Shown here: one piece after another, positions 6,538-11,471 of the stretch | How the letters are laid out: every line of letters starts with the position of its first letter | How positions within the stretch are numbered: position 1 is the first letter of the stretch | DNA from: Planctomycetota bacterium | GTDB taxonomy: Bacteria > Planctomycetota > B15-G4 | Assembly: GCA_029259725.1 (NCBI GenBank) | Contig: JAJDER010000070.1 | Location: 1-64,000 of the forward strand | Direction of reading: 5' to 3' | DNA: 64,000 bases | Program-made: the position numbers and the translations under genes | Notes under the pieces: model-generated | The model's input: the letters and a program-made list of their open reading frames with translations, nothing else | Database searches by the model: none | What the model was told of the DNA's origin: nothing

Positions 6538-8097
6538 GTGGCCGAGCACTACCCCGAACTCGTCACCCAGCACCAGCACGGCGTCGGCATGCACGAGCCG
6601 AAGTCCTTCGAGGACACGCTGCGCGACCTGGTGCGGAACTCGCCGTACTTCTTCTTCTCGCTCGTGCTGCACGGCGCGGCCATCGGCGTCTTCATGCTGA
6701 TGCCCACGGACAACATCTCGGGCGAGGACGCGCGCATCATCCAGGCGACGGCTGAAGAGTTCGAGGAGCCGATCCCGCCGGAGCCGCCGCCGGAGGAGGA
6801 GATCGAGGAGGTCGAGGAGATCATCGAGGACCCGGTCGTGACCGAGGACGAGGTCACCGAGGTGATCGAGATCGTCGACAACGTCTCGACCGACGCGCCC
6901 TTCGACAGCACCGGCCTGAACGACGTGATCGGCGTGGGCGGCGGTGGCGGCGGGCAGTTCGGCAAGCTGGGGGGTCGCGGCCGCGCCGGCAAGGCGGGTG
7001 GTGAGGCCACCCAGCGCATCGTCGACGACGCCCTGCGCTGGCTGAAGAACCACCAGGACCCCGAGGGCTTCTGGTCTTGCGGCGCGTTCGACCTCGAGTG
7101 CGGCAAGCAGGGCGAGGACGTGATCTGCTCCGGACCCGGCAGCACGCAGCACGACGTGGGCGTGACCGGCCTGGCCCTGCTCGCCTTCCTTGGCGCCGAC
7201 AACACCGACAAGCGCGGCAAGTACAAGGACACCGTCCGGAACGCGCTGAAGTGGCTCAAGGACGTGCAGGAGCCCGACGGCAACTTCGGCTACATGCAGA
7301 ACGCCGACTACACCTACGACCACATCATCGCCACCCTGGCGATGGTCGAGGCGTACGCCATCACGCAGCGCAACTATCTCAAGAAGCCCGCGGAGAAGGC
7401 GCTCGAGTACATGTACTCGATCCGCAACCCCGGGGCGGCCTGGCGGTATGCGGACTTCCACCCGGAGATGCTCACGCACCAGAACGACGTGTCCGTGAGC
7501 GGCTGGGCCGTGCTGGTCATGTCGCTGGCCAAGGAGTACGACCTGCCCTTCGACGAGGTCGCGATGGACGACACCATGTTGTTCATCGAGGAGATGACCG
7601 ACGAGACCGGCAAGACCGGCTACTTCGAGCGCGGCGGCGATCCGGCGCGTCTGGAAGACAAGGGCGTGATCTGGGACAGCGGCCTCTCCGAGTCGATGAC
7701 CGCGGTGGGCATCCTGTGCCGCATCTTCGCCGACCCCGAGCTGGACAACTACCCGGGCAACAAGGCCATGGTCGAGAAGGGCATCAAGCTGATCGAGGCC
7801 AAGCCGATCGTCTGGGACGAGAACGAGATCGGGAAGATCGACTTCTACTACTGGTACTACGCGACCTACGCGCTGTACCAGTACAGCGAGATCGACTCCA
7901 AGCCGTGGAAGGCCTGGGAGAAGCGCATGGTCGATGCCATCGCCGAACAGCAGGTCAAGGAAGGCGAGGAGAAGGGCAGCTGGGACCCGTCGGTGGATCC
8001 GTGGGGCAACGTCGGTGGGCGCGTGTACAGCACGGCCACGCTGGCGCTGTGCATGGAGGTCTTCTACCGCTACGAAACGGTCATCGGCAGCCACTAG
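6538..8097 (+). CDS. TonB-like anchor fused to squalene-cyclase-like toroid domain (paralogue 1)
   Basis: The protein is 519 aa. I chose GTG 6538 over the ORF-track start because AGGAG lies 8 nt upstream and the protein then aligns with the start of paralogue 3. Residues 1-36 are cytoplasmic. One membrane segment (about 37-55) contains SLVLH, the SxxxH pattern of TonB-type energy transducers. An acidic, proline-rich stretch and a Gly-rich linker follow. The rest is an alpha/alpha-toroid of the prenyltransferase/squalene-oxidase-repeat type (ALRWLKNHQDPEGFWSCGAF, GSWDPSVDPWGNVGGRVYST). The DXDD acid of true squalene-hopene cyclases is not present (AMDDT instead), so cyclase activity is unlikely. 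Conserved cysteines (LECGK, VICSG) are shared by all three paralogues. The function is unknown. Confidence 0.8.
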   Translation: MAEHYPELVTQHQHGVGMHEPKSFEDTLRDLVRNSPYFFFSLVLHGAAIGVFMLMPTDNISGEDARIIQATAEEFEEPIPPEPPPEEEIEEVEEIIEDPVVTEDEVTEVIEIVDNVSTDAPFDSTGLNDVIGVGGGGGGQFGKLGGRGRAGKAGGEATQRIVDDALRWLKNHQDPEGFWSCGAFDLECGKQGEDVICSGPGSTQHDVGVTGLALLAFLGADNTDKRGKYKDTVRNALKWLKDVQEPDGNFGYMQNADYTYDHIIATLAMVEAYAITQRNYLKKPAEKALEYMYSIRNPGAAWRYADFHPEMLTHQNDVSVSGWAVLVMSLAKEYDLPFDEVAMDDTMLFIEEMTDETGKTGYFERGGDPARLEDKGVIWDSGLSESMTAVGILCRIFADPELDNYPGNKAMVEKGIKLIEAKPIVWDENEIGKIDFYYWYYATYALYQYSEIDSKPWKAWEKRMVDAIAEQQVKEGEEKGSWDPSVDPWGNVGGRVYSTATLALCMEVFYRYETVIGSH

Positions 8098-8444
8098 ACG
8101 ACGTCGCCTGATCGAACCACCGGCGCCATGCGCGTCGGTGAGCCGCGGCCCCGGTATCCCTTGCGGATGCCGGGGTCGCGGTGGTTCCGGCCGCATGCGC
8201 TCCCTCCCGGGCGGAGGCACGGGGCGGGAAAACGACCAGGTGCCCCGTGCTCAAACAGGCGCTTCGCTAAACTGCCCGCGGGACACCTGGACTTTTCCCC
8301 GTCGCCGATACATCGGAGGCGGGTGGGAGCGCCTGCGGGGGCCGGGGTGAAAGGGGCGGGACTCTGGCGCGCTTCGGCCCTGGTGGCGGTGGGCCGGACC
8401 GGCGGTATGGTGGCAAGCAGGGAGCCTCGGGGGAGTCGCCGACC
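8098..8444. other. Intergenic region between toroid paralogues 1 and 2
   Basis: This 347-bp stretch holds the hairpin at 8143-8181 and a TAAACT box at 8268-8273 with no convincing -35. The ribosome binding site GGGGGAG lies 9 nt before the ATG at 8445. I see no gene here. Confidence 0.5.
8143..8181 (+). terminator. Strong hairpin after paralogue 1
   Basis: CCGCGGCCCCGGTAT pairs with ATGCCGGGGTCGCGG over 15 positions, two of them wobble pairs, around a 9-nt loop. It lies 46 nt after the stop codon, with no T-tract. Confidence 0.5.
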
Positions 8445-9674
8445 ATGCCGTCCATTCGCGTCCTGCAGCACGTCCTGTTCTCGTTGGTCATCGTCGGCAT
8501 CGCCGCGCCCTGCTGCGAAGCCCAGACGGACCCTCCACCCGACAAGACCGATCCGAAGGCCGCCGTCGGTGGTATTGGCGGGGGCGGCAACTTCGGGAAG
8601 ATCGGCAGGCTTGGACCGATCGGTGCCAACGGCGTCAGTACCATGCGCATCACGGATGACGCACTGACGTGGCTGAAGAACCATCAGCGCCCGGACGGCT
8701 CCTGGTCAAGCGCCCACTTCGACCTGGAGTGCGGCAAGCAAGACGACGACGTGATTTGCTCCGGCAAGGGCAGCCCACAGCAGGACGTGGGTGTGACCGG
8801 GCTGGCGCTACTCGCCTTTCTCGGTACTGGCAACACCCACAGGGTGGGCAAGTACAAGTACACCTGCATGGGCGCACTGACCTGGCTCGTGGACATCCAG
8901 GATCCCGACGGCAACTTCGCCGACTCGAAGAGCAGCGACCTCGCCTACGGCCACATCATCGCCACCGTGGCCATGTGCGAAGCGTACGCAATCACGCGCG
9001 ATGACGACTTCGAGTTGCCAAGCCGGAAGGCAGTCGAGTTCATGTCCGTCGTCCTCGAGGACAAAGACGACATCACCCTCATCGGGTGGGCCGTGGTGGC
9101 CATGACCGTGGCCCGCGAATACGACATCGCGATCGATCAGTCCTCGCTGGATCGTTGCATGCGGATCCTCGTGGAACGGACCGACGAGTCCGGCCGCACC
9201 GTCGCCTCGGGTCTTGGTGCTCGGGACCAGACAGGGGGCGAGCCCGGTGCCGAGCATGCCGACCGCCACGAGCGGCCGACGGCACTCGCCCTGCTGGCTC
9301 GCATCTTCGCCGACCCCACGCTGAGCACGTACCCAGGCAACCGCGAGATGATCGACAAGGGCGTCGAGCTGATCGAGGCCAGGCCGATCGCGTGGGACAC
9401 AAGCGATCCCGGCGAGATCGACTTCCACTACTGGTACTACGGGTCCTATGCTCTCTATCAGTACAGCGTGATCGACTCCAAGCCCTGGAAGGCCTGGGAG
9501 AAGGGGATGCGCGAGGTGCTCTCCGAACATCAGGCCAAGGAAGGCGAAGCCAAGGGCAGCTGGGACCCGTCGGTGGATCCGTGGGGCAACGTCGGGGGTC
9601 GCGTCTACAGCACGGCCATGCTGGCCCTGTGCATGGAGGTCTACTACCGCTACGACACGGTGCTCGATCGCTAG
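8445..9674 (+). CDS. Secreted squalene-cyclase-like toroid protein (paralogue 2)
   Basis: The protein is 409 aa. Its toroid domain matches paralogues 1 and 3 (DALTWLKNHQRPDGSW, FDLECGKQDDDVIC, GSWDPSVDPWGNVGGRVYST). In place of the TonB-like anchor it has a signal peptide (VLFSLVIVGIAAPCCEAQT). The proline-rich arm is absent and only the Gly-rich linker remains. A segment of about 17 residues present in the others (PGAAWRYADFHPEM region) is missing. The last 100 or so bases are almost identical in DNA to paralogue 1, which suggests recent duplication or gene conversion. GGGGGAG precedes the ATG by about 9 nt. It is presumably periplasmic; the function is unknown. Confidence 0.8.
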   Translation: MPSIRVLQHVLFSLVIVGIAAPCCEAQTDPPPDKTDPKAAVGGIGGGGNFGKIGRLGPIGANGVSTMRITDDALTWLKNHQRPDGSWSSAHFDLECGKQDDDVICSGKGSPQQDVGVTGLALLAFLGTGNTHRVGKYKYTCMGALTWLVDIQDPDGNFADSKSSDLAYGHIIATVAMCEAYAITRDDDFELPSRKAVEFMSVVLEDKDDITLIGWAVVAMTVAREYDIAIDQSSLDRCMRILVERTDESGRTVASGLGARDQTGGEPGAEHADRHERPTALALLARIFADPTLSTYPGNREMIDKGVELIEARPIAWDTSDPGEIDFHYWYYGSYALYQYSVIDSKPWKAWEKGMREVLSEHQAKEGEAKGSWDPSVDPWGNVGGRVYSTAMLALCMEVYYRYDTVLDR

Positions 9675-9902
9675 ATCGTCGTCGGGAGCAGCGGCAAGCG
9701 ACCGTCTCGGTCCCACGCAGGCCGCCCATCGCTAGATTGCGGGACGCGCCCCCCCATCCGTGACCGGCCTCGGCCGTTGCTTGCGCGCCCCCTGCTCCTA
9801 GAGCCTCCTGCTCCGCCCGGACCGTGAGCGACCGACGGCACGCGAACGCCGCGCCCCGCGCTCCACCCCTGAACCGCCCGGGCGGCGGCGAGGAGGTGGA
9901 CC

Positions 9903-11471
9903 ATGGTCGCGACCCATCCCGAACTGGTCGTCCAGCGCCCGCACGAACGCAGCTTCGAGGACACGCTGCGCGAGCTGGTCCGCGACGCGCCGTACCTCTT
10001 CGTGGCGCTGGTGCTGCACGCCGTCGTGATCTTCGTGTTCGCGATGATCGAGACGCCGGCGATGGTCACCGACCCGATCCGCCAGATCACGATGACTCCC
10101 AAGCCCGAGGTCCCGCCGCTCCCGCCCGAGCCGATTCCGCCGGAGCCCGTGATCGAGCCTCCCACCGAGCCGATCATCGACCCCGTCATTGCCAAGGAGG
10201 ACGTGCCCGACGCCGAGCCGGACCTCCCGCTCGCGCCCGATACGGGCCCCGTCGACGACAACCCGCTCCCCATGATCCTCGGCCCGGGGCCGGGAGGCGG
10301 GAGCACGCACTATGGCGACCGCCCGGGGCCAGGCATAGGAGGCCCTCCCGGCGCCGGCGACGCGACCAACGAAGCGGTGAACCGAGGCCTGCGCTGGCTC
10401 GCGAAGCACCAGACTTCCGAAGGGCACTGGTCCACGGCCGCCTTCGACCTGGAGTGCGGCAAGCTGGGCGACGACACGATCTGCGACGGCGTGGGTAGCC
10501 CGCAATACGACGTCGGCGTCACCGGCCTCTCGCTGCTGGCCTTCCTGGGCGCCGGCCACACCGACAAGCGCGGTGACTTCCGCAAGACCGTCAAGGCCGG
10601 CCTGCGCTTCCTCGTGGACGTGCAGGACGGCGACGGCGTCTTCGCCGGCGGCACGGGCAGCCAGTACCCCTACGATCACGCCATCGCGACGCTGGCCCTG
10701 GTCGAGGCCACGGCGCTCAGCGGTTCGTATCCGATCAAGCAGGCCGCCAAGCGCGCGCTCGAGCACCTCTACCTGCTGCGCCAACCCGGCGCCGGCTGGC
10801 GCTACGCGGACTTCCATCCGGAGATGACCGACCCGCGGCACCGCAGCGACACCTCGGTCACCGGCTGGGCGATCCTCGCCATCACTTCGGCCAAGGAGAT
10901 CCCCGGGCTCCCGTACGACGCCGTGGCCCTCGACGACGCCATGCTCTTCCTCGAAGAGATGACCGACCGCGACACGGGGCGCACCGGCTACATCGAAGCG
11001 GGCAGCTACCCGGCGCGCGAGGCCGACCGCGCCGAGTTCTGGCCCGACCGCCAGAGCGAGTCGCTCACCGCGGTCGCCGTGTTGTGTCGCGTGTTCGCCG
11101 ACCCCGACCTGGAGATCGCCGGCAACCGCGACATGATCGAGAAGGGCGCCGCGCTGATCGGCGCCCTGCCCCCGCTCTGGAACGACGACGAGCCCGGCCG
11201 CCGCGACCTCTACTACTGGTACTACGGAGCCATGGCCCTCTACCAGGCGCAGGAACTGGACCAGAAGCCGTGGAAGCGCTGGGAGCAGGCGATCGTGTCC
11301 GAGATCGTCCCGCACCAGCACCTCCAGGGCGAGCGCACCGGCTCCTGGGACCCGCAGGTCGATCCGTGGGGTCACCTCGGCGGCCGCGTCTACAGCACGG
11401 CGATCATGACCCTGACGCTCGAGGCCTACTACCGCTACGGGCGGGTGCTCACGCCGGGGCGCGGCAGGTAG
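9903..11471 (+). CDS. TonB-like anchor fused to squalene-cyclase-like toroid domain (paralogue 3)
   Basis: The protein is 522 aa, with GAGGAGG shortly before the ATG. The first 60 residues mirror paralogue 1: RSFEDTLRELVRDAPYLF leads into a membrane segment with ALVLH, where Ser of the SxxxH pattern is replaced by Ala. The proline-rich arm (EVPPLPPEPIPPEPVIEPP) is very TonB-like, as expected for a periplasm-spanning rod. A Gly/Pro-rich linker and the toroid domain follow (GLRWLAKHQTSEGHWSTAAF, GSWDPQVDPWGHLGGRVYST). The segment equivalent to the cyclase acid motif reads ALDDAM, again without the first Asp. It is more diverged from 1 and 2 than they are from each other. The role is unknown. 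Confidence 0.8.
   Translation: MVATHPELVVQRPHERSFEDTLRELVRDAPYLFVALVLHAVVIFVFAMIETPAMVTDPIRQITMTPKPEVPPLPPEPIPPEPVIEPPTEPIIDPVIAKEDVPDAEPDLPLAPDTGPVDDNPLPMILGPGPGGGSTHYGDRPGPGIGGPPGAGDATNEAVNRGLRWLAKHQTSEGHWSTAAFDLECGKLGDDTICDGVGSPQYDVGVTGLSLLAFLGAGHTDKRGDFRKTVKAGLRFLVDVQDGDGVFAGGTGSQYPYDHAIATLALVEATALSGSYPIKQAAKRALEHLYLLRQPGAGWRYADFHPEMTDPRHRSDTSVTGWAILAITSAKEIPGLPYDAVALDDAMLFLEEMTDRDTGRTGYIEAGSYPAREADRAEFWPDRQSESLTAVAVLCRVFADPDLEIAGNRDMIEKGAALIGALPPLWNDDEPGRRDLYYWYYGAMALYQAQELDQKPWKRWEQAIVSEIVPHQHLQGERTGSWDPQVDPWGHLGGRVYSTAIMTLTLEAYYRYGRVLTPGRGR

Follow-up and report, generated by a model that had tools for sequence, protein, structure and literature searches.

Textbooks have long named TonB and TolA as the clients of those 5:2 motors of the inner membrane which act on the outer membrane, and planctomycetes are known for their unusual envelopes and for the uptake of large molecules. 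Structures obtained by cryo-electron microscopy show the serine/histidine pair of TonB (Ser16/His20) and of TolA packing on transmembrane helix 1 of ExbB/TolQ (PMC12215075), and in Escherichia coli TonB a strand SVTM, about 30 residues past the serine, is offered to ExbD (the D-box; PMC10907165). In 2025 force transducers with a von Willebrand A (vWA) head and an SHLS-type anchor were proposed for bacteria of the Planctomycetes-Verrucomicrobia-Chlamydiae (PVC) group, encoded beside tetratricopeptide repeat (TPR) proteins, one tolQ, and two tolR (PMC12204202, Mol Biol Evol); the main text of that paper does not mention squalene or a toroid. The DNA analysed here, called the window, is a stretch of 64,000 nucleotides on contig JAJDER010000070.1 (C162 in our numbering) of a planctomycete draft genome of 195 contigs and 84% completeness, whose closest relatives with a name are metagenome-assembled genomes of Planctomycetota. 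The window contains three tandem genes, P1, P2, and P3, all coding for toroid proteins. P1 and P3 probably represent a toroid-headed class of periplasmic force transducers which are driven by the proton motive force through ExbBD/TolQR motors, in parallel to the vWA-headed class.

All three genes and the features described for them lie on the plus strand. P1 (6538..8097) codes for 519 amino acids and has a GTG start, which was placed at 6538 because the N-terminus then lines up with that of P3 (9903..11471, 522 amino acids). The original prediction had read a TonB layout from P1 and P3, and this was confirmed in the sequence: in both proteins a cytoplasmic tail is followed by a single transmembrane helix, an acidic and proline-containing arm, and a toroid. 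The transmembrane helix of P1 spans residues 37–54 (6646..6699), in agreement with a helix over the same residues in the AlphaFold2 model, and carries the motif SLVLH at residues 41–45 (codon of Ser41 at 6658-6660, codon of His45 at 6670-6672). The corresponding motif of P3 is ALVLH (residues 35–39 with Ala35 and His39; 10005..10019). The arm of P1 (6709..6957) is predicted to be disordered, with a predicted local distance difference test score (pLDDT) of 34-61 in AlphaFold2, and it leads to an (alpha/alpha)6 toroid head at residues 150-515 (6985..8082). The head of P3 is located at 10350..11447.

The serine/histidine motif in the helix is conserved throughout the phylum. A set of 155 distinct anchored homologues from Planctomycetota was chosen by the occurrence of [SA]xxxH within a transmembrane window. 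Histidine is present in all 155, and the residue four positions before it is serine in 146 and alanine in nine, P3 with its Ala35 being one of these nine, which all keep the histidine. The anchor follows the consensus [A/S]-P-W-x-x-[I/L]-[S/A]-x-x-x-H, with the proline found in 147/155 and the tryptophan in 132/155. In an alignment of 96 rows only Pro36 and His45 were invariant within the anchor (His 96/96). When the toroid proteins were counted without selection for the motif, 155 of 176 distinct proteins had it, in 11 the transmembrane helix or signal peptide lacked it, and for 10 no transmembrane helix was in reach; nearly all of these exceptions are signal-peptide copies, truncated frames, or members of other toroid families. 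In other coding-like frames of the same DNA, SxxxH occurred in 10 of 804 transmembrane windows (1.2%), so that its frequency in the toroid anchors is far above chance.

The anchor had been described as TonB-type, and a resemblance to TonB was indeed found, together with an equal resemblance to TolA. Profile-profile alignment (hhalign) of the toroid anchor with anchors of true planctomycete TonB proteins, most of which also contain SxxxH, yielded a local E-value of 3.5e-5 and a probability of 72%, as compared to 7% for ExbD anchors and 1.3% for ExbB anchors as controls. When a family profile of the anchor alone was run against all 177,635 distinct sequences of the Protein Data Bank (PDB), three TolA chains of TolAQR structures occupied ranks 1-3. 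Their E-values were about 0.7-1, and it is the rank which is telling and not the E-value. As judged by these profile comparisons the anchor is as much of the TolA type as of the TonB type.

The arm following the helix has a median length of 109 amino acids in the 155 homologues, with 24% acidic residues (Glu/Asp) and 9% proline. A D-box-like alternation of hydrophobic and polar residues, defined by a loose pattern, was found in 69 of them (45%), compared to 20.1+-4.2 in shuffled sequences, and 50 of the 69 occurrences are located exactly at +27 from the serine; as the sequences are related, these counts are not independent. In P1 the respective stretch is ARIIQATAEEF (6730..6762), about 26 residues past Ser41, which is weak in P1 itself and was assigned from the enrichment in the family. 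P3 contains IRQITMT followed by a proline (10077..10097), which may be compared to QPISVTMVTPAD of E. coli TonB. A group of homologues, named C159-type after a protein described below, carries FKVRLAP, FRVQLAP, and YRVTMAR at this site. Such stretches are suggestive of an ExbD-binding strand, and are not a proof of it. Two further motifs were seen in the region of P1 residues 100-150 (window 6835-6987) and alignment columns 190-250: a conserved DHNETD-like motif of the arm, matched as a loose pattern in 52/155 homologues, and a stretch IGxGGGAGG ahead of the toroid in 73/155.

A linkage of the homologues to exbBD in related genomes had been suggested as a check, and toroid proteins were found within exbBD operons. 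In 12 of 60 exbD loci from relatives (L188, L190, L191, L193, L197, L198, L202, L205, L211, L213, L216, and L229) the immediate neighbour of exbD, in the same orientation, codes for a toroid protein, where about 0.1 would be expected by chance according to our own estimate, which assumes that a genome has about ten toroid genes and several thousand genes in all. The anchors of these proteins contain SxxxH in nine cases and ALVLH in two (L198, L202), and one (L216) was not readable. In three further loci (L153, L160, L162) a P1-type gene leads a series toroid-TPR-TPR-exbB-exbD-exbD on one strand. A P1-type gene also leads the series toroid-TPR-exbB-exbD-exbD in L098 and a motor series in L120, where the contig ends after one exbD. 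Sets of exbBD on the opposite strand near toroid genes (L141, L145, L152) were not counted as linkage. In a tree of the toroids the motor-linked P1-type genes fall into four separate places, and the C159-type proteins form a neighbouring clade; the tree, in which the label noanchor includes mislabelled duplicates, was used solely to place these sequences.

The head itself was described in the original prediction as an alpha/alpha toroid lacking the DXDD acid of the cyclases and standing in place of the TonB C-terminal domain, and all parts of this description held. P3 matches the Pfam family SQHop_cyclase_C (PF13243) with an E-value of 1.8e-10 and 40.8 bits, which exceeds the gathering cutoff of 26.1, and P1 (23.4 bits, E-value 3.5e-5) and P2 (19.2 bits) score below this cutoff; 94 of 96 relatives match the family at E<=0.1. 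A profile of 16 family members run against the PDB retrieved squalene-hopene cyclase with an E-value of 6.8e-11. The AlphaFold2 model of P1, calculated from an alignment of 96 sequences from related loci, yielded one (alpha/alpha)6 toroid with pLDDT mostly >95, and its Foldseek neighbours are squalene-hopene cyclase domains, members of glycoside hydrolase family 76 (GH76), and epimerases of the N-acylglucosamine 2-epimerase (AGE) type, with a TM-score of about 0.6 by target. A Pfam search for the TonB C-terminal domain gave no match in P1–P3, and a vWA head is absent from them according to Pfam and AlphaFold2. The toroids of P1 and P3 contain no DxDD. Such strings occur in 25 of 197 toroids at varying, non-conserved sites, and DxDD was therefore rejected as a catalytic acid; a CGEQ sequence in L051/L111, considered as a thioester site, was rejected on its context. 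In the 96-row alignment conservation is 3.33 bits for the six helices which we assign to the inner set versus 2.31 for the outer helices, and the near-invariant residues Asp206, Tyr260, His262, Asp317, Ser319, Glu385, Thr388, Asp435, Tyr437, Arg495, and Tyr497 are located at or near the N-terminal turns of the inner helices. This pattern is as would be expected of a ligand-holding or catalytic cavity.

A head with so many invariant polar and aromatic residues might also belong to an enzyme or a binding protein of the periplasm. Its toroid would then be cyclase- or glycosidase-like, and its anchor, derived from a helix of the TonB or TolA type, would now serve as a mere tether to the membrane. 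Most toroid folds are indeed enzymes (GH76, epimerases, squalene-hopene cyclase), soluble copies like P2 exist, and P1–P3 do not adjoin exbBD in their own genome. A plain tether would, however, not be expected to keep its histidine in 155 of 155 homologues throughout the phylum while the remaining helix varies, and the recurrent linkage to motor operons is another argument against it, which makes this explanation improbable. P2 (8445..9674) was found to bear an N-terminal signal peptide instead of an anchor, so that two of the three paralogues are anchored as had been foreseen and the third is not. It lacks the RNPG-AWRY stretch and several residues which are near-invariant in the family. In L067 and L068, and probably in other loci, signal-peptide copies like P2 are neighbours of anchored ones, so that a soluble partner copy recurs. 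Plasmid records searched with P1 gave no match.

The genome contains ExbB on two contigs (C159 and C90) and ExbD on three (C159, two on C90, and C155). The ExbB and the ExbD of C159 match solved chains of TolQ/ExbB and ExbD/TolR, respectively. The gene order on C159 is TPR, exbB, exbD, and, 5 nucleotides past the stop codon of exbD, a toroid protein of about 1170 amino acids which has an N-terminal transmembrane helix, PD40 repeats, a second transmembrane helix, a third one with SLLVH, and, beyond a long arm, a toroid which shares 30% identity with that of P1. On C90 the series TPR-TPR-exbB-exbD-exbD is present and no toroid gene adjoins it; because this is the same series as in the operons led by P1-type genes, the C90 motor is a candidate for serving P1 and P3. 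The proteins encoded on either side of the C90 series (L016) have C-terminal ends which look secretin-like by eye.

The operon on C159 (L015 4952-13101) resembles a Tol operon in which a TolB-like and a TolA-like part are joined in one protein. As a version of the force transducer interpretation, this operon could stand in for CpoB-TolQ-TolR-TolB/TolA and stabilise the outer membrane, with P1 and P3 as extra TolA-like arms. TPR, motor, and PD40 parts are found together on C159, TolA leads the matches of the anchor profile, one OmpA-domain protein is encoded in the genome, and a search of the genome for a TonB_2-type domain (the C-terminal domain of TolA/TonB_2) found none. There is, on the other hand, no OmpA-domain gene on the C159 stretch, P1 and P3 have no propeller, and the several paralogues per genome fit substrate-specific roles better than a single housekeeping role. 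The Tol-like version therefore appears rather unlikely.

P1 and P3 might also act as TonB proper and energise TonB-dependent receptors via the toroid, as they share the anchor and arm layout of TonB and a receptor is present in the genome. The only TonB_C match of the genome, however, belongs to a separate true TonB on C43, which adjoins this receptor, and P1–P3 lack this domain. Among the 58 genomes of a second sample, ExbD was found in 56 and TonB_C in 44; of the 14 genomes with no TonB_C match 12 carry toroid homologues, and ExbD was found in 11 of those 12. They include two single-contig genomes of 99% completeness (G036, G059), in which a toroid gene of the L190/L205 type adjoins exbD. 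A role as TonB proper is thus highly improbable. The C43 locus (C43:45356-49950; L017 5357-9951) has the order extracytoplasmic function (ECF) sigma factor, zf-HC2 anti-sigma-like protein, TonB-dependent receptor, true TonB. The anti-sigma-like protein has one transmembrane helix and a toroid-like periplasmic part which seems to replace the domain of FecR in this Fec-like set. Two further secreted toroid proteins of the genome (L018 3629-4750 and L019 4806-5897) have no TonB-type anchors and group apart, on a branch of their own, in the toroid tree.

Several observations weigh against the force transducer interpretation. The individual E-values for a likeness to TonB or TolA anchors are weak, and a search of the PDB with the single P1 anchor sequence gave nothing useful. 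The leucine and second serine of SHLS are not conserved: position +11 is leucine in only 82/155 homologues, and in P1 the expected place of the second serine is occupied by Pro56; a poor conservation of these positions has been noted for TonB as well (PMC12215075). Ser34 of ExbB is seemingly kept as Ser45 in the C159 protein when read at an ungapped offset, but Trp38 is replaced by leucine, so that the docking face is similar and not identical. P1–P3 do not lie next to exbBD, and in most of about 105 loci the P1-type genes show no such linkage, and the case was therefore not based on the neighbours of P1–P3 themselves.

A coupling to the proton motive force or docking to ExbBD, as originally proposed, is supported by sequence, fold, and gene context, and none of the three conditions named as refuting it applied. 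In the mechanism we infer, the N-terminal helix would dock from outside on a pentamer of the ExbB/TolQ type, provided by the motor of C159 or C90, with the face that bears Ser/Ala-xxx-His, and ExbD would receive the D-box-like strand about 27 residues past the serine. The arm, acidic and disordered, would span the periplasm and bear the (alpha/alpha)6 toroid instead of a TonB or TolA C-terminal domain. The toroid may hold a partner in the envelope. This could be a ligand, such as a glycan or a peptide, or else a protein which is secreted or belongs to the outer membrane, and ion flow through the motor would pull on this partner or release it. P2 could be a soluble copy without anchor which competes for the partner of P1 and P3 or buffers it.

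Of 148 genomes sampled from the phylum, 126 have homologues of P1, and the 77 named homologue loci are labelled as Planctomycetota, as a taxon within Planctomycetota, or as unclassified bacterium. It is conceivable, with somewhat less than even chances, that in this phylum-wide class with several members per genome the direct load of the motor is a ring which holds a ligand or is catalytic, and not a domain for binding a receptor. The flow of ions would then power the capture or remodelling of glycans or peptides or outer-membrane traffic in Planctomycetota, also in genomes without TonB. A ring-shaped head on an anchor of this kind points to an undescribed way to send force across the cell envelope. 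Being present in most of the sampled Planctomycetota, a toroid-headed class would extend the motor clients by a head of quite different fold and would make it possible to test what the numerous exbBD sets in the phylum are for. As an isolate, Poly30 (locus L184), has toroid homologues, the key histidine can be tested.

The combination of toroid and SxxxH anchor had not been recognised as functionally described, and no earlier description was found in the open-access literature. Among published systems the vWA-headed class comes closest, which shares with P1 and P3 the SHLS-type Ser/His transmembrane helix, the disordered arm, and a globular head unrelated to TolA or TonB, and which occurs in the same type of operon (TPR-tolQ-tolR-tolR) as the series holding P1-type genes; it differs by having a von Willebrand A domain where P1 and P3 have a toroid. 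TonB (PF03544) and HasB resemble P1 and P3 in the cytoplasmic tail, the SxxxH helix, the acidic, proline-containing arm, and perhaps a D-box-like strand, but TonB_C stands in the place of the toroid. TolA is the best PDB match of the anchor profile, and TPR and PD40 parts are found near some toroid homologues; P1 and P3, however, lack the TolA C-terminal domain, and the arm of P1 is predicted to be disordered whereas that of TolA is a long helix. The toroids of squalene-hopene cyclase (PF13243), GH76, AGE epimerases, and the thioester-containing domain (TED) are related to the heads by fold and by weak sequence similarity. Squalene-hopene cyclase has two toroid domains in contrast to the single one of P1 and P3, which also lack a conserved DXDD, and the P1 and P3 heads differ from other (alpha/alpha)6 toroid proteins by being tethered to an SxxxH anchor and by an invariant-residue set of their own. 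By domain content the toroid proteins are thus neither TonB nor TolA, and most likely they work like these with a new head.

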